From: a virus
Virus record (IMG/VR): IMGVR_UViG_3300020020_000103
Location: 1 to 37,959 of that record
Length of the DNA stretch: 37,959 bases
Direction: 5' to 3' (one strand)
Shown: piece after piece, positions 5,932 to 11,672 of the stretch
How the letters are laid out: each line of letters starts with the position of its first letter
Position numbering within the stretch: position 1 is the first letter of the stretch
The notes under the pieces: model-generated
Seen by the model: only the letters and a program-made list of their open reading frames with translations
Database searches by the model: none
What the model was told of the DNA's origin: nothing
Position numbers and translations under genes: made by a program

Positions 5932-7236
5932 ATGCAGTTAATATCTAACAAAAAATGGGACACTTTGCAACTAGAAATAAAGGCTTTGCAAAGTAATAAT
6001 TTAGCAAACGCCTTTCGTTATTTCACATCGCAAATCTTCCCGCATTGGGCTGTAGTAAAAGAGTTAGACGCATATCAAACGATTGATGATATTTACTCAG
6101 TTGTGAAAAAACTAGCAACCGCATCGGCATTAATCCCCTTCTATGCTTACGATAAAGCCAAAGATACTGACTTACCCGACACAGATAAATTATACACCTT
6201 TTTAGATACACTGGATTTCGAACAAAAAGAAATCCTTTACACCTTCCTTTATTTACAAGGGGAGGTTTTTGCATATAAAAACATTATCGAAGAGGGGATT
6301 AATAAAGGAGCCAGTAAGCTTACTTTTTTAAACCCGTCAAAAGTTACCTTAGCCCTTACAAACGATTTTCCAATAGAGATAGCCGGGTTTAAATATGACG
6401 ATCCTCAAAGCGGAATTACTAAAGATATTAGCGTAGAGGAAATGGTGTTTATTAAGCTACCAAACCCGTCGGCTAGTAAAGATGAAGAATGGAGAGGGCT
6501 TTCACCTATCAAGGTTTTAGCTCAGCGTTTAACAAGGGTGCAAAGTGGATTAGATGTGACCGTAGCACAATTACAAAACGGTGGTGTACCTGGGATTGTA
6601 TTCGATAAAACGCCAGGTTTAGAAGCCGGGGCAGTAAGTACAAGGCGTGACAATTTCGGGCGGTTTATTCGTAACAAGGATAATAAAGGCGCTCCATATT
6701 TCTCAGCTAATGATCTTGGTTATATCGCACTAGGAACCACGTTAGCGGATATGGATGTAGCAGCTTTAGCAAATATCGACTTTGATAAAATCTGTAACGC
6801 TTACGGGGTTAGCTCGGTCCTGTTCAATAATAAATCAGCCAGCACAGAAAGTAACGTGCAGGAAATGGTAAAGGAAATGTACACCAACACCATTATTCCA
6901 AACGTTTACCGGGTAGAAGGGGCTTTAAATAAATATGTAGTCCCCGACATCCAAACAAAAGGAATTATTAAATGTGACGTAAGCGAAATCGAAGCGTTAA
7001 AAGAAGATCAAACCAAATTAGTTACCGCGTTAAAAGATGCATGGTGGTTAACAGGTAATGAGAAACGGGAGCGCATGGAATACGATCAGGATATAGCTGT
7101 TGAAGAAATGGATAGATACCTTGTACCTTCAGGAGTAATGTTAATTGAGGATTTAAGTATAGTTGTTGATGAAGTACTCAACTCAGCAGGAGATTATTTA
7201 GCACCGGTTAAACCATTAAAACAAGCCAATGGATGA
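5932..7236 (+). CDS. Portal protein, HK97 family
   Basis: The product (434 residues from the ATG at 5932; a TTG codon lies one codon earlier) has the layout of HK97-like portals. An N-terminal helical part is followed by EMVFIKLPNPSASKDEEWRGLSPIKVLAQ, then VTVAQLQNGGVPGIVF, and a stem region with VSSVLFNNKSASTESN. It should form the dodecameric ring at the capsid vertex that DNA and the tail connect to. Position between terminase and MuF-type gene supports this. The last codons overlap the next small gene at 7229. Confidence 0.93.
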   Translation: MQLISNKKWDTLQLEIKALQSNNLANAFRYFTSQIFPHWAVVKELDAYQTIDDIYSVVKKLATASALIPFYAYDKAKDTDLPDTDKLYTFLDTLDFEQKEILYTFLYLQGEVFAYKNIIEEGINKGASKLTFLNPSKVTLALTNDFPIEIAGFKYDDPQSGITKDISVEEMVFIKLPNPSASKDEEWRGLSPIKVLAQRLTRVQSGLDVTVAQLQNGGVPGIVFDKTPGLEAGAVSTRRDNFGRFIRNKDNKGAPYFSANDLGYIALGTTLADMDVAALANIDFDKICNAYGVSSVLFNNKSASTESNVQEMVKEMYTNTIIPNVYRVEGALNKYVVPDIQTKGIIKCDVSEIEALKEDQTKLVTALKDAWWLTGNEKRERMEYDQDIAVEEMDRYLVPSGVMLIEDLSIVVDEVLNSAGDYLAPVKPLKQANG

Positions 7237-7390
7237 ACAACTCGAAAAGGTAATATGTAAGGCTTTACCCTTACCGTCATGCCCGCAAAAAGCTGAAGCG
7301 ATTAAACTTACCCGCGTCTGGCTAAAAAGGGAAATACTAAAATTATATACCCCGCAAATAAATCAAGTTGGACCTACGCAGTTAAAGTAA
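7229..7390 (+). CDS. Hypothetical 53-residue protein overlapping the portal gene
   Basis: The ATG at 7229 lies inside the last codons of the portal gene in another frame and opens a 53-codon ORF rich in Lys and Leu (KALPLPSCPQKAEAIKL). Coupling to portal translation is likely. It ends at 7390, overlapping the 3' end of a convergent minus-strand gene by 9 bases. No domain is recognised; it is a helical, basic small protein. Confidence 0.55.
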   Translation: MDEQLEKVICKALPLPSCPQKAEAIKLTRVWLKREILKLYTPQINQVGPTQLK

Positions 7391-7552
7391 ATCCTTTTTC
7401 TTTAGCTTGGTAATTTCTTTTCTAACCGCAACCTTTACCGGCTCCCGCCATTCTTCTTTAATCCTGAATGAAACAGTTTTCCATTCTATGCCGGATGGTT
7501 TGCGGCCAGCCCCTTCACGTTTGCCGCCCCTTTTTTCTTCTTTCCCTGTCAT
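7382..7552 (-). CDS. Small basic protein, possible DNA-binding (GRKP motif)
   Basis: A 56-codon frame starts at 7552 and shares an ATGA junction with the upstream minus-strand gene. The N-terminus is strongly basic and Gly-rich (KRGGKREGAGRKPSG), a leader often seen in phage and Bacteroidota DNA-binding proteins. It is followed by TVSFRIKEEW and a helix, a pattern close to ribbon-helix-helix proteins. That reading is an inference. It is the last gene of a four-gene leftward cassette lodged in the late operon. Confidence 0.6.
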   Translation of the reverse strand: MTGKEEKRGGKREGAGRKPSGIEWKTVSFRIKEEWREPVKVAVRKEITKLKKKDLL

Positions 7553-7761
7553 TGGTTGTGGTTTTGGTTGAAGTATTGTTCTGCATTTTTTGCAGATGAA
7601 ATCATTTTACCGCCATCTACCCAAGCATCTATTATCTGCTGCTTTTCCAGTTCAAGCAGCTGCTCAATTCTATATCTTATAGAACGGAGATCGTTATCAA
7701 TCTCGCCTTCCCTTGCTAATCTAATAATTTCAAGTGCCTCTTTGATTGCTGTATTATTCAT
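7549..7761 (-). CDS. Hypothetical helical protein, 70 residues
   Basis: The predicted product is almost entirely helical and charged (KEALEIIRLAREGEIDND, RYRIEQLLELEKQQI). The stop overlaps the next start in the cassette (ATGA), so it is co-translated with the small basic protein. Nothing identifies its job. It could be a partner of the basic protein in a regulatory or toxin-antitoxin-like pair, but no toxin fold is seen. Confidence 0.6.
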   Translation of the reverse strand: MNNTAIKEALEIIRLAREGEIDNDLRSIRYRIEQLLELEKQQIIDAWVDGGKMISSAKNAEQYFNQNHNQ

Positions 7762-7766
7762 ATTAT

Positions 7767-8003
7767 TTATTTTAAACTGTCAATGTATTTTTGTCTTAAT
7801 TCAGGAATGGCTTTTGGATAATAAGGCCCGTCAAAAGATATTTCGCTATAACCTAAAAGAAACTTAGCAAATCCGTCCATTACTTCAATGGTTATTTCTG
7901 TACAGGATTGGGCGGCAGCATCTACAGTATTATTATCAAGATAGCCATACTTATTAACGTTTTTATTTACCGCATCTAAGTGTTTTTGTTTTATATTTTC
8001 CAT
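7767..8003 (-). CDS. Hypothetical protein, 78 residues
   Basis: Second gene of the leftward cassette. The protein is mixed alpha/beta by eye, with an N-terminal basic part and a central helix (CTEITIEVMDGFAKFLLG), ending with an aromatic segment (SFDGPYYPKAIPEL). No family is recognised. It lies 5 bases before the next gene and 13 bases after the previous one, which supports a single transcript from the promoter near 8252-8282. Confidence 0.6.
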   Translation of the reverse strand: MENIKQKHLDAVNKNVNKYGYLDNNTVDAAAQSCTEITIEVMDGFAKFLLGYSEISFDGPYYPKAIPELRQKYIDSLK

Positions 8004-8016
8004 GCATTAATTCGCT

Positions 8017-8232
8017 TTATGGGTTTATAATAAAATCCCGACCTTGCAAAAACCATTTCAATAAACTAATTTGTCTTTCTTCGGACAATTCAAATTGCCA
8101 GTTATCTACTGATACACGATTTTCATTAACATAAAATGAATTACCATATTCACGGCTATGTTGATTTTGAAATTCTGCAGCAGCCTCAAGGCTTACTTTA
8201 TTGTCTGTGATAATTGCGATAACGTTTGTCAT
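8017..8232 (-). CDS. Hypothetical protein, 71 residues
   Basis: First gene of the leftward cassette, starting 20 bases downstream of a well-formed Bacteroidota-type promoter. It has a short beta strand start (TNVIAIITDN), a helix, then a Trp-containing segment (VDNWQFELSEERQISLL). No domain is recognised. A stand-alone promoter and opposite strand to the structural genes mark the cassette as moron-like cargo. Confidence 0.62.
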   Translation of the reverse strand: MTNVIAIITDNKVSLEAAAEFQNQHSREYGNSFYVNENRVSVDNWQFELSEERQISLLKWFLQGRDFIINP

Positions 8233-8251
8233 GACCTTTTGATTTAGGATT

Positions 8252-8282
8252 CAAAGATACAACTCTTTTTGATATTACAAAA
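8252..8282 (-). promoter_or_regulatory. Bacteroidota-type promoter for the leftward cassette
   Basis: On the minus strand TTTTG (8282-8278) is followed after 18 bases by TATCTTTG (8259-8252). This matches the Bacteroidota consensus TTTG-N18..21-TAnnTTTG. The first gene starts at 8232, giving a short leader. The same element layout recurs at 33540 and 35955 on the plus strand. Confidence 0.7.
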
Positions 8283-8351
8283 CATTTATCAAAGTATTTT
8301 TAAAATAGTTCAAATTATTTTATAGACTAAATAATTTAGTACCTTTATAAA

Positions 8352-9935
8352 GTGAATCTTAATGAACAAAATGAATACTGGCACAAATGGAACCGCTTTC
8401 AACTGCGGCATGAGGGTATTTACACGCCTAAATACAATAAGGCATTAAGGGAACAAATCAACCAATTTATCGAAGCGGGTACTTTAATGGCGGTTGACTC
8501 AGCGCCTATCTATAAAGTAACTTTAGAACTATACACAACCGTTAGCCCTATATGGGCAGCCGCTTCTACACTTAATCTAAGGCGACAAAAAGCAAGGGCG
8601 CCAATGGGATTTAGTCAGTATATCGTTGATCAAATGGCGATTTACTACGGGATAGACTTCTTGAATATGTCCGATAATATCACCCAAACAACTAAAGATA
8701 CTATTCAGGCCGTTTTAAATCAGGCAGCTTTAGAAGGATTTGGATTTGATGAGGTTGTAAGGCGATTACAGAGCACAGAATTAACAAGGTTTAGAGCTAG
8801 GTTAATTGCTAGGACTGAAACCGTTGGGGCCGCTAATGCCGCTAGTAATATCGCTGCAATTAAAACAGGGTTGCTTTATGATAAAATCTGGATCTCAGCG
8901 CGTGATGCCAGAACCAGACCTCACCACAGAGAAGTAAATCAAAACGTTGTAGGCATGTCTGAAACCTTTACGGTAGGCACTTCACAAATGCAATTTCCAG
9001 GCGATAAAGACGGGGGGCCTAATGAGGTTTGTAATTGTTTTTTACCCGACCAATTGACATCCGTAAACCCCGAAATAATCAATAAGGCTTTCAGAAGTTT
9101 CTACGATGGAAAGGTTGTCACCATCGAGGCTTCCAACGGCAACAGTTTCACCTGTACCCCGAACCATCCAATACTTACAACTAAAGGATTTCGTGTAGCT
9201 GACAGCCTTACAAAGTTTGATAAGTTGGTTTATAGTAGTTTCATTAACGACAAGGTCTCTCCCGATTTTAACATAAACAACAGTAAATCCACGTTTGAGC
9301 AAATATATAATACGCTTAATGAATTTAGGGTGAGTGTGCGGAAAAACGGTAGCGTTATGGATTTCTATGGCGATGGATCCAATAGCGATGTCAATATTGT
9401 AAGTATTGACGGCCAATTGCATAACAGGGTTGAATTGGGTAAGCCTATCAACAACGGATTGCTCCAAAATACCAACTTCAACGAGGCTGGATTGCTTAGT
9501 AATAGCAGCCAAAGCGATCCGCTTACTTCTTTGATCTTGGGTGGTTTTAGCCATCGCTACATTAGCGCCAAAAACGAGCTTTCTCCTATCATCGAAAGAA
9601 GTGTTAGCCATTCTAATAAACATGCTTTCGCTCCTGTTTTTTTGGATAATTCCATTCCTACGGAGACGGTTAACAATAACGCTCCTGCTACATCCGATAT
9701 TAGCGGCGATTTGTTTGACAGAAATATCATCATTGAACATCTTGATAATGAGATCAACGTCAACAATTGTGCGGACATTACGAGTATTAGTCATAGTTAT
9801 TATAAAGGTTTTGTTTATACGTTAGAAACAACCGAAGGTATTTATGACATTAATTCTTTTGTTGCAAAAAATTGCCGGTGCTGTGTTGCGCAGATACCTA
9901 AGAGGGATAGTTCGGGGAGGTTGATTAGGGTTTAA
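8352..9935 (+). CDS. MuF/SPP1 gp7-like minor head protein containing an intein
   Basis: The precursor is 527 residues from a GTG start; an in-frame stop at 8337 excludes an earlier start. Residues 1-228 and 508-527 together form a 248-residue phage head morphogenesis protein. The helix AALEGFGFDEVVRRLQ and TRFRARLIARTET lead to ISARDARTRPHHREVNQ and the conserved C-terminal CNCRC motif. An intein (residues 229-507) interrupts this motif between N228 and C508. After splicing the product would be a minor capsid component near the portal. It is flanked by two minus-strand cassettes, and its 3' end overlaps the convergent gene at 9925 by 11 bases. Confidence 0.92.
   Translation: MNLNEQNEYWHKWNRFQLRHEGIYTPKYNKALREQINQFIEAGTLMAVDSAPIYKVTLELYTTVSPIWAAASTLNLRRQKARAPMGFSQYIVDQMAIYYGIDFLNMSDNITQTTKDTIQAVLNQAALEGFGFDEVVRRLQSTELTRFRARLIARTETVGAANAASNIAAIKTGLLYDKIWISARDARTRPHHREVNQNVVGMSETFTVGTSQMQFPGDKDGGPNEVCNCFLPDQLTSVNPEIINKAFRSFYDGKVVTIEASNGNSFTCTPNHPILTTKGFRVADSLTKFDKLVYSSFINDKVSPDFNINNSKSTFEQIYNTLNEFRVSVRKNGSVMDFYGDGSNSDVNIVSIDGQLHNRVELGKPINNGLLQNTNFNEAGLLSNSSQSDPLTSLILGGFSHRYISAKNELSPIIERSVSHSNKHAFAPVFLDNSIPTETVNNNAPATSDISGDLFDRNIIIEHLDNEINVNNCADITSISHSYYKGFVYTLETTEGIYDINSFVAKNCRCCVAQIPKRDSSGRLIRV
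9036..9872 (+). other. Intein (Hint splicing domain) in the MuF gene
   Basis: The intein covers residues 229-507 of the precursor. It begins with C229 (CFLPDQLTS). Block B is present as FTCTPNHPIL with T269 and H272, followed by LTTKGFRVADSLTKFDKLV. The C-terminal end has the block F/G form GFVYTLETTEGIYDINS, then FVAKN and C508 as the +1 residue. The penultimate residue is Lys506 instead of the common His, which some inteins tolerate. The middle, about residues 296-472, is unusually rich in Asn, Ser and Asp and contains no LAGLIDADG or HNH nuclease in this frame. That central part is where the opposite strand encodes the HTH and nuclease core of a homing endonuclease. Confidence 0.92.
9042..9794 (-). 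CDS. Antisense-encoded HTH + Vsr/DUF559-like homing endonuclease inside the intein
   Basis: This 250-codon ORF lies wholly within the intein on the opposite strand, in exact codon-to-codon antisense register. Residues 11-50 form a helix-turn-helix (VKQIAANIGCSRSVIVNRLR) followed by a basic linker (KNRSESMFIRMANTS). Residues 105-180 look like a PD-(D/E)XK nuclease of the Vsr/DUF559 type. E111, D135 in TYNIDIAIG and E144 in SIAIEIH are candidate catalytic residues, with H146, H153 and H155 nearby, and YLLKRGFTVVYVKI after them. The end has YWMVRGTGE, also seen in such endonucleases. It should cut intein-less MuF alleles and drive intein homing. Its stop is the complement of the Leu231 TTA codon and the upstream limit is the Leu491 TTA. 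Family assignment is from memory of motifs; no alignment was run. Confidence 0.85.
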   Translation of the reverse strand: MTNTRNVRTIVDVDLIIKMFNDDISVKQIAANIGCSRSVIVNRLRRNGIIQKNRSESMFIRMANTSFDDRRKLVFGANVAMAKTTQDQRSKRIALAAITKQSSLVEVGILEQSVVDRLTQFNPVMQLAVNTYNIDIAIGSIAIEIHNATVFPHTHPKFIKRIIYLLKRGFTVVYVKIGRDLVVNETTINQLIKLCKAVSYTKSFSCKYWMVRGTGETVAVGSLDGDNLSIVETSESLIDYFGVYGCQLVG

Positions 9936-10332
9936 TATTTAGTTCCTCTCCCGTTAAGATATGGTAAAGGTTTTGCAGTTGGTGTAGATGCTTAAATTCT
10001 GGTTGTAGTGCAAATTTACCATTGTCCATCTTGTCGTAATTTATGTAAATGGTAAATGTCTCGTCAAATCCATACGCCCAAAATTCAAACTTGTTTAACG
10101 CCCATTTACATACTGTGTAGTTTTCAATATTTTCCCCTGTTTCTTTAAACCCGCATTTCTCTAATATTTCAGGTGTTATTAGGATGCCAAATAAATTATA
10201 ATTTAATGATAATAAACCACGCTGTTCTTCTACCAATATGTCATCTGAATTGTCAAGCCTTAAAACAGTAAATACACCTCCTGTTTCTTTTTGCAACTTA
10301 TTCCCAATTCTTAAATCTTTATATTTTATCAT
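9925..10332 (-). CDS. Hypothetical phage protein, 135 residues
   Basis: The protein starts IKYKDLRIGNKLQ and ends with HLHQLQNLYHILTGEEL. I associate both ends with a common but uncharacterised protein of Bacteroidota phages and mobile elements. It is largely beta strand by eye and has no catalytic motif. It is the third gene of a leftward cassette and ends 130 bases before the start of the antisense endonuclease gene, so readthrough would place that gene on the same transcript. Confidence 0.7.
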   Translation of the reverse strand: MIKYKDLRIGNKLQKETGGVFTVLRLDNSDDILVEEQRGLLSLNYNLFGILITPEILEKCGFKETGENIENYTVCKWALNKFEFWAYGFDETFTIYINYDKMDNGKFALQPEFKHLHQLQNLYHILTGEELNIKP

Positions 10333-10336
10333 ACAG

Positions 10337-10732
10337 TTAATTTTGTTTTAATGGTTGTGTATAATGTTCATTTAAAATCCTTAAAATCAACTTTCTTAAA
10401 GTTATGCCCTCCATTTTTGCATGATTCTTTAATGGCTCAACAAGATCGCCAAGTCTTACAGAACAATCAGCTTTGAATTTTATTGGCTCTCTTGAAAGGT
10501 GGATGTTTTTTAATTTAATCCCTTTTGCAATAAAGTATTTTATCCACTTGCCTTCAACCTTAATTAGCTCCTGCCTGTTTATAAATTCAACCTGCTCTAA
10601 TACCTCAATAGATATATTTTGGCCGTATAAAGTTTTGTGGTTCCAAAGCCTTTGATTTACGTTAATCGTAGACCCGACATAAAATATCTCCCCTGTTTTA
10701 ATGTCTTTTAAGCTGTAGATGAATCCTGTCAT
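10337..10732 (-). CDS. GIY-YIG nuclease with RHH-like C-terminus
   Basis: Residues 1-85 form a GIY-YIG domain. The two-strand signature appears as GFIYSL and FYVGST, followed by NVNQRLWNH with the conserved Arg. E80 or nearby acidic residues in KVEGKWIKYF may supply the metal ligand. Residues 95-131 (RLGDLVEPLKNHAKMEG and LRKLILRIL) resemble a ribbon-helix-helix or other small DNA-binding tail. Such proteins are often homing endonucleases or marker-exclusion nucleases. It sits in a minus-strand cassette between an RHH-like gene and the intein locus. Confidence 0.85.
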   Translation of the reverse strand: MTGFIYSLKDIKTGEIFYVGSTINVNQRLWNHKTLYGQNISIEVLEQVEFINRQELIKVEGKWIKYFIAKGIKLKNIHLSREPIKFKADCSVRLGDLVEPLKNHAKMEGITLRKLILRILNEHYTQPLKQN

Positions 10733-10908
10733 TGTTTTGGTTCGCTATGTTTTATGATGCTAATAACTTTAGTTTCGTTGTCGGCGTCTAGCCATGTTTT
10801 AATTGCTATGTCGGCAACTTTATTCATCTTGAAAACGGGATTTTCAACAACATAGTCAACTAGCTTCTGATGCGTATCATCGCTGATTCTTACACCTTTT
10901 TCTTCCAT
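10729..10908 (-). CDS. Small RHH-like protein, 59 residues
   Basis: The frame begins at the ATG at 10908 and ends in an ATGA overlap with the GIY-YIG gene. The sequence KGVRISDDTHQKLVDYV, followed by a helix with NKVADIAIKTWL, follows the strand-helix-helix pattern of CopG/Arc-type regulators. It is the first gene after a divergent intergenic region carrying repeated TTTTTACTACA elements, so autoregulation or control of the capsid operon is possible. This is inference from pattern and position. Confidence 0.65.
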   Translation of the reverse strand: MEEKGVRISDDTHQKLVDYVVENPVFKMNKVADIAIKTWLDADNETKVISIIKHSEPKQ

Positions 10909-10946
10909 AGTATTTATTAGATTTTAAATAGAATATTAAGCCGTAA

Positions 10947-10954
10947 CAAATATA
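10947..10954 (-). promoter_or_regulatory. Possible -7 element for the second leftward cassette
   Basis: TATATTTG on the minus strand fits TAnnTTTG and lies 38 bases before the ATG at 10908. The nearest TTTG upstream is about 23 bases away, longer than the usual 18-21, so the promoter is weaker evidence than the one at 8252-8282. Confidence 0.45.
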
Positions 10955-10958
10955 CTAC

Positions 10959-11004
10959 TTTTTACTACATCCCTTAGCAAAACATAAAATTTATTTTTAC
11001 TACA
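10959..11004. repeat. Two direct copies of TTTTTACTACA between divergent genes
   Basis: Identical 11-base copies occur at 10959-10969 and 10994-11004, 35 bases apart, with a further partial ACTAC at 10954-10958. The second copy ends two bases before the prohead protease ATG. Position between a small RHH-like gene and the capsid operon suggests operator sites, but no binding is shown. Confidence 0.5.
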
Positions 11005-11006
11005 CA

Positions 11007-11672
11007 ATGTTTAAAAGTCTTACAAGTACCATCAAGGATTTAGACAAACAAGGCCGCGTGATCGTAGCTGCGAATGCGTTTGGTAATGTCGACAGCCAGA
11101 AGGATGTAAGCATGCCCGGTAGTTTCTCAAAAACAATTAAACAGGATTTTATTCGGTTGAAATGGTTTCTTAATCATGATACAAGAATATTATTAGCCGT
11201 ACCGATAGACGCACAGGAAACAAAAGACTATTTACAGGTTACCGGCCAGATAAACATGGATAAGGAGATAGGCCGCGATACTTACGCAGATTATAAACTT
11301 TATGCAGAATACGGGAAGAGTTTAGAGCATTCCATCGGAGTTGATTGTAAAGATTCTGTCATAGATCAGGGAGTAAGAAAAGTAACTGAGTGGAAATGGT
11401 GGGAATTAAGCACACTGACAGCATGGGGCGCAAACGAGCGCACACCGATGCTCGATATTAAGTCTGCTGACCCTACTAAGCAGATTGAATGGATGGCCTT
11501 GCAACTTAAAAAAGGCGATTACACCGACGAAAGATTTACGGAAATCGACAAGGCATTAAATCTTCTTTTAAAATCACTGGTTGAGCCGGACCCGTCCACT
11601 CATGACCAGCCGATCATAGCCAGTGACCTGGCGGGCATTTCAACCACATTCATAAACTCATTAATTAATTAA
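11007..11672 (+). CDS. HK97-type prohead protease
   Basis: This serine protease (peptidase U35/S78 type) removes the scaffold-like N-terminal part of the capsid protein during maturation. The sequence has AFGNVDSQKDVSMPGSF, then LKWFLNHD with H57 and KSLEHSIGVD with S109 as the expected catalytic His and Ser. The domain ends with ELSTLTAWGANERTPML. It directly precedes the capsid gene, as in HK97-like genomes. Length (221 residues) is typical. The C-terminal 60 residues are more variable and may help assembly. Confidence 0.9.
   Translation: MFKSLTSTIKDLDKQGRVIVAANAFGNVDSQKDVSMPGSFSKTIKQDFIRLKWFLNHDTRILLAVPIDAQETKDYLQVTGQINMDKEIGRDTYADYKLYAEYGKSLEHSIGVDCKDSVIDQGVRKVTEWKWWELSTLTAWGANERTPMLDIKSADPTKQIEWMALQLKKGDYTDERFTEIDKALNLLLKSLVEPDPSTHDQPIIASDLAGISTTFINSLIN

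Follow-up and report, generated by a model that had tools for sequence, protein, structure and literature searches.

The MuF-type head gene at 8352-9935 (+) of the window, the whole 37,959-base virus record analysed here, is split by an intein whose complementary strand encodes a second protein. Together they very probably constitute a mobile intein whose own antisense strand carries the gene for its homing endonuclease (HEN). Translation of the head gene from the plus strand would run through the intein, and the Hint ends (about residues 1-70 and 240-279) would splice the intein out. The minus strand of this DNA, read codon against codon, would give a separate protein with an N-terminal helix-turn-helix (HTH) domain and a Vsr/EDxHD-like nuclease. 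In a co-infecting phage that lacks the intein in MuF, this nuclease may cut at the conserved N^C-R-C site; repair templated by the occupied allele would then bring the intein in. Here a splicing element and a putative endonuclease share one DNA segment on opposite strands, in many phages of unrelated hosts and with measurable selection on both.

Two protein-coding strands in one intein

In terms of Pfam families the sense gene reads as Phage_Mu_F split by Intein_splicing, and consists of the following parts:

8352-9035 (+): N-extein of the MuF-type minor capsid/head morphogenesis gene, GTG start; Phage_Mu_F 8e-11 at residues 116-229, phrog_15127 head protein 1e-54
9036-9872 (+): intein of 279 aa, C1 to N279 and then Cys+1, insertion site N^C-R-C; Intein_splicing E 1.6e-8, 34.9 bits, just below the Pfam cutoff of 35.8
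9147-9179 (+): splicing block B (FTCTPNHPILT), facing the C-terminal region of the antisense protein; sense-constrained
9363-9374 (+): sense FYGD (DFHGD in the family), opposite the antisense active-site strand; both frames constrained, pLDDT about 73-88
9435-9692 (+): sense residues 134-219, predicted disordered (pLDDT < 50), largely a mirror image of the antisense gene; changes mainly at sense codon position 1
9810-9872 (+): splicing blocks F (FVYTLE) and G (VAKN)
9873-9935 (+): C-extein, starting C-R-C-C

Splicing blocks A, B, F and G are all present, with C1, TxxH, the terminal N and C+1. The Hint fold is predicted with pLDDT > 90 at both ends of the model, and the top Foldseek matches are inteins, Mtu RecA and Mxe GyrA (prob 1.0, partial coverage). 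The original prediction, made from the letters of the DNA, had stated that the sense frame holds no nuclease. Family searches agree, as they found Hint blocks but no nuclease family in the sense frame of the window intein, the middle of which is predicted to be disordered. The opposite strand carries:

9042-9794 (-): antisense homing-endonuclease-like gene, 250 aa, in codon-to-codon register with the intein; supported by family alignments and an AlphaFold2 model
9654-9761 (-): HTH DNA-binding domain, residues 12-47; HTH_38 5.7e-5, with HTH families matched in most members
9129-9479 (-): Vsr/EDxHD-like nuclease core of the PD-(D/E)XK type, residues 106-222, assigned by VIA-align Z
9462-9464 (-): E111 (sense codon CTC); Glu in 79/80, opposite sense L or F
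9390-9392 (-): D135 (sense codon GTC); Asp in 80/80, opposite sense V or I
9363-9365 (-): E144 (sense codon TTC); Glu in 79/80, opposite sense F, L or I

A 250-codon ORF lying wholly inside the 279-residue MuF intein had been the core of the original prediction, and 250 codons plus a stop are indeed found within 9036-9872. Could this frame simply be open by chance or through sense codon bias, its homology being the mirror of sense similarity? The codon-to-codon register is where chance antisense ORFs run longest in GC-rich genomes, a general point in favour of such a reading. In this register an antisense stop arises wherever the sense strand uses TTA, CTA or TCA, and in this AT-rich genome Leu is most often encoded by TTA and Ser by TCA. 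When the sense codons were re-drawn from the window's own codon usage in 5000 trials, 22.0 +/- 3.4 antisense-stop codons were expected in the intein; it contains 2, neither of them within the ORF. Its longest stretch without an antisense stop spans 259 codons, compared with a maximum of 105 in the synonymous recodings. Sense similarity alone does yield some antisense score, since recodings average 46.8 +/- 10.5 bits (maximum 90.6) against an HMM built from 79 other loci, but the window scores 195.7 bits. With its nearest relative (L127) it shares 45% identity in the antisense protein versus 32% in the middle of the sense frame.

A comparison of selection on both strands in homologous inteins, proposed along with the original prediction, supports coding on both. 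The ratio of changes at sense codon position 3 to those at position 1 is 1.53 in the exteins, 1.62 in blocks A-B, 0.78 in mid-intein and 3.60 in the last 20 codons. Changes at position 1 exceed those at position 3 in mid-intein in 14 of 14 independent pairs, with the reverse in Hint ends and exteins, and antisense identity is higher than sense identity in all 14 as well. The pattern is thus antisense-type in the middle and sense-type at the Hint ends.

Individual residues follow the same division. The antisense frame has A77, N133 and D135 in every one of 80 distinct inteins and E111, Y132 and E144 in 79 of them, whereas the sense residues opposite conserved antisense columns vary (G/S/R/C, V/I, L/F). 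In block B the situation is reversed, the sense His being present in 80/80 and the Thr in 79/80 opposite varied antisense residues (V/M, G/C/S). At the sense FHG motif, antisense Ala142 is encoded by GCC in 76/77 and Val143 by GTG in 71/72, a preference not shared by the other Ala and Val columns, and therefore both frames appear constrained there. Antisense selection is the main force that keeps the middle of the intein, sense selection keeps the Hint ends, and the FHGD/active-site segment is under both kinds. On the recoding test and the codon-position pairs we reject the shadow-ORF and mirror-similarity readings; adding the independent homology to HTH and nuclease families and a high-confidence structural model, a chance origin of the frame becomes exceedingly improbable.

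A separate observation concerns the sense FHGD motif, which in the window (9363-9374) and in the family alignment is constrained in the sense frame too, beyond the antisense active site. More generally, the locus is a natural example on which long antisense dual coding can be studied.

The antisense protein and its start signals

Several features had been read from the antisense product by eye: an HTH region, a core with E111, D135 and E144, and a resemblance to Vsr/DUF559-like nucleases. Searches against nuclease families and structure prediction of both products, the checks proposed at the time, uphold all three. The HTH is recovered at residues 12-47 and the three acidic residues lie where they were placed, conserved as listed above. 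Family members match several HTH families as well as MTES_1575 (6.6e-6) and DUF559 (2.1e-4) in Pfam, and a profile of 54 antisense proteins matches PDB entries 3hrl (6.9e-7) and 3r3p (9.2e-5), the latter being the catalytic domain of the EDxHD homing endonuclease I-Bth0305I. Structure prediction returns a nuclease-like fold for the antisense protein, alongside the sense Hint ends with their disordered middle. The AlphaFold2 model of the antisense protein has a mean pLDDT of 89.2, and Foldseek ranks 3r3p first for it (E 0.015, prob 0.97). VIA-align gives Z 9.5 to 3r3p (over 108-200) and Z 9.2 to E. coli Vsr 1vsr (106-222), values just modestly higher than those of the next unrelated rows (Z 8.5 and 7.6). 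Because this margin is modest, the fold is assigned from structure, profile homology and conserved residues taken jointly.

The start of the antisense gene is embedded in the sense splicing signals. In most relatives its ATG is the complement of the His codon before VY(N/D)L in block F, and a Shine-Dalgarno-like GGAG/GAGG upstream of it is formed by the Leu and Gln/Glu codons that follow. This His codon is CAT in 49/57 relatives, compared with 38% in exteins, with P values inflated by the relatedness of the sequences. The Leu codon is CTC in 56/72, compared with 23% in exteins, and 45 of the 57 relatives having the block-F His carry a GGAG/GAGG within 18 nt, both counts again coming from related sequences. 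The window ORF has no block-F start; it begins at codon 26 from the intein end, 6 codons to the plus-strand upstream side of the block-F start, and the same variant start is seen at codon 25 in L127 and L128. Upstream of it, on the minus strand, lie:

9795-9814 (-): region just upstream of the antisense ATG, no Shine-Dalgarno, unlike most relatives
9925-10332 (-): phrog_10066 protein (6e-16), ending 130 nt ahead of the antisense start codon
10337-10732 (-): GIY-YIG domain protein of the same minus-strand run; Pfam GIY-YIG 1.9e-5, above the cutoff
10729-10908 (-): minus-strand ORF, first in the run toward the antisense gene
10947-10981 (-): Bacteroidota-type promoter-like site TTTG-N23-TAnnTTTG, with 7 matches in the window versus 3.2 by chance

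The promoter-like site at 10981-10947 thus precedes the minus-strand genes that lie ahead of the antisense gene, which is probably expressed by read-through from them. Scans of 7200-11200 for sigma-70-type promoters and terminators gave counts near the shuffled expectation, and no tRNA was found in the window. Placement on the antisense strand would allow the endonuclease to be expressed independently of the late structural gene. Minus-strand gene runs lie on both sides of the MuF gene, at 7549-8232 and 9925-10908 (-), each preceded by a TTTG-N-TAnnTTTG site (that of the 7549-8232 run at 8281). Klebsiella RCIP0054, Edwardsiella MSW-3 and Pantoea AH01 likewise have small antisense-strand genes flanking MuF.

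Is the window copy itself still active? The window copy has the EDxHD motif only in part: E111 and D135 are near-invariant, while the downstream His, found in 59/80, is a Phe (F151) in the window; the AAHxAVRG motif is degenerate there as well (AANVAMAK). Because these two elements diverge, the activity of the window copy is less certain than that of its relatives, and it could be diverged or inactive. The missing His, the degenerate motif and the missing Shine-Dalgarno might together mark a once functional HEN now in decay, with the element at the degeneration stage of the homing cycle. We consider this unlikely: the frame is fully open despite the AT-rich genome, it keeps E111, Y132, N133, D135, A142, E144 and R161, and its close relative L127, which has a variant start region too, is also intact.

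Recurrence and alleles at the MuF site

The pairing of intein and antisense HEN was found in well over a hundred phage sequences. By tblastn, the antisense protein is matched opposite annotated head genes in Gordonia, Idiomarinaceae, Klebsiella and Edwardsiella phages, and likewise in Cronobacter, Salmonella, Pantoea and Vibrio phages. Searches of viral contigs with single query proteins gave no matches; pattern scans built on a closer subset of the antisense alignment, the full one being too divergent, brought in a further 80 of 177 viral contigs along with 7 bacterial ones (Actinobacteria, Chitinophaga, Firmicutes).

All 99 phage or prophage loci obtained by antisense-protein searches have the HEN frame opposite an open frame that matches the intein profile, and in codon-to-codon register with it. 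Of these loci, 94 gave complete inteins, 80 of which are distinct; the antisense frame stays open across 84% of the intein at least and 95% in the median. A second sample comprised the best 80 loci fetched with the sense intein via a pattern in block B and ranked by similarity over the whole sense intein. Every one matches the antisense HEN profile at E < 1e-5, and in 79 the antisense frame is open over 75% or more; the remaining locus, L173, has two inteins. Stop codons scattered through the antisense frame of homologues, which the original prediction had named as evidence against itself, were seen in neither sample, both of which, having been gathered by similarity to one strand or the other, favour intact pairs. 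The N-exteins match Phage_Mu_F in 44 of 65 cases, Phage_min_cap2 in 9 and VG15 in 4.

Among the full-length matches fetched there was no free-standing full-length homologue of the antisense protein. Weaker Bacteroidota matches are mostly short frames that span the nuclease core only, and one near-full weaker match (L114) is likewise antisense to an intein. Two loci, L084 and L173, have two inteins per MuF gene, one after an ARTE motif and the other at an N^C-R-C type site, and antisense HEN profile matches lie opposite both. In the annotated phage records examined, the feature tables name the head protein only and never the antisense gene, a practice that would leave a large set of homing endonucleases hidden from annotation.

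The same insertion site is polymorphic among close relatives. Gordonia Vividuovirus phages, with exteins mostly 90-97% identical, have this one site either empty (Shivanishola, Brandonk123) or filled by different inteins. Vivi2-type alleles carry an intein with an antisense HEN of the window family, Kewpiedoll combines a different intein with the same HEN family, and a third intein, making up a fourth allele, is found in Thing3, Lennon, Nordenberg and Barsten. Salmonella Jerseyvirus provides a further example of intein presence and absence, including an empty allele, so that polymorphism at a fixed site is seen in both the Gordonia and the Salmonella relatives.

Opposite the third Gordonia intein runs an ORF that includes a LAGLIDADG-like motif, AAYVAAFIDGEG, and has no Pfam match. 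This ORF matches the phrog_5046 endonuclease (2.2e-15, labelled HNH there) and, weakly, I-MsoI 3fd2 (1.3e-3). Between Lennon and Barsten, changes within it number 51/6/16 at sense positions 1/2/3, and identity is 92% in antisense versus 72% in sense, a pattern that is reversed outside the ORF. It occupies the same Gordonia site, and the antisense architecture thus appears with two unrelated nuclease families. The LAGLIDADG-like frame lies at L103:1188-1775 (-) and also in L102, L107 and L108, with strongly antisense-type codon evolution.

These alleles bear on what the antisense protein does. A real antisense protein need not be a homing enzyme and might instead serve as a DNA-binding regulator, a repair or anti-competitor nuclease, or an intein-linked exclusion factor; its cleavage activity is a prediction, HTH domains occur in regulators too, and the nuclease core is also found in DUF559 and Vsr proteins with no homing role. 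Yet every examined copy sits inside an intein at a conserved MuF site, close relatives have empty alleles, an endonuclease family unrelated to this one is encoded at the same antisense position there, and the best structural match is the catalytic domain of a homing endonuclease, I-Bth0305I. A role other than homing is therefore quite improbable, and we retain the mobile intein with an antisense HEN as the preferred reading.

Relation to known mobile elements

Canonical mobile inteins such as PI-SceI and TliVMA (PMC3943268, PMC8966425) have, like the element described here, a Hint domain in a conserved motif of the host protein and a HEN carried within the intein, and homing by double-strand break repair is expected of both. 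The intein HEN is described as being translated in fusion with the intein (PMC3943268), whereas here it is a separate opposite-strand protein and the sense frame is without a nuclease. The element would work like a mobile intein, but its gene architecture departs from the in-frame layout: no in-frame HEN lies between blocks B and F of the window intein.

Other systems share single aspects. In red algae, nuclear group I introns have antisense His-Cys box HEGs, so that there, as here, the HEG lies on the complementary strand of a self-splicing element; those HEGs lie opposite an intron extension that is not translated, and degeneracy is described for most copies (PMC2585584), while here both strands are protein-coding. 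I-Bth0305I (3r3p) resembles the antisense protein in its nuclease fold, profile homology and modular DNA-binding part, but is a group I intron enzyme in sense orientation; here the HTH comes ahead of the nuclease, in a gene that overlaps an intein coding for protein. Fractured genes, reported by Dassa et al. in 2009, are said to link the Vsr-like HEN family to inteins as well, but with the HEN gene reportedly between the halves of a split intein, and here it overlaps an uninterrupted intein frame. Our search of the open-licence literature found no description of antisense HENs in inteins.

It seems likely that we are dealing with a distinct class of mobile intein, in which splicing domain and HEN are antisense overlapping genes, block F containing the start and ribosome-binding site of the HEN and a conserved sense motif facing its active site. 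This class would have arisen with at least two unrelated nuclease families at the MuF site. HENs are known to decay in the course of a homing cycle (PMC8966425); the overlap would tie loss of the HEN to damage of the intein and possibly slow this decay. Whether such an overlap shields selfish endonucleases from decay thus becomes testable.

Inteins examined beyond this family appear to show both layouts. The methyltransferase intein of Lactobacillus phage Nyseid has a LAGLIDADG-looking region (recognised by eye) in the sense frame and no long antisense frame in codon-to-codon register, which is the conventional arrangement. The MuF-like genes of Vibrio phages 1.082.O and 1.265.O (L109:1215-3341, L110:1221-3314) contain inteins of another Hint lineage, and opposite these runs an antisense frame of about 256-259 codons in which an HTH and a DUF559-like part can be recognised by eye.
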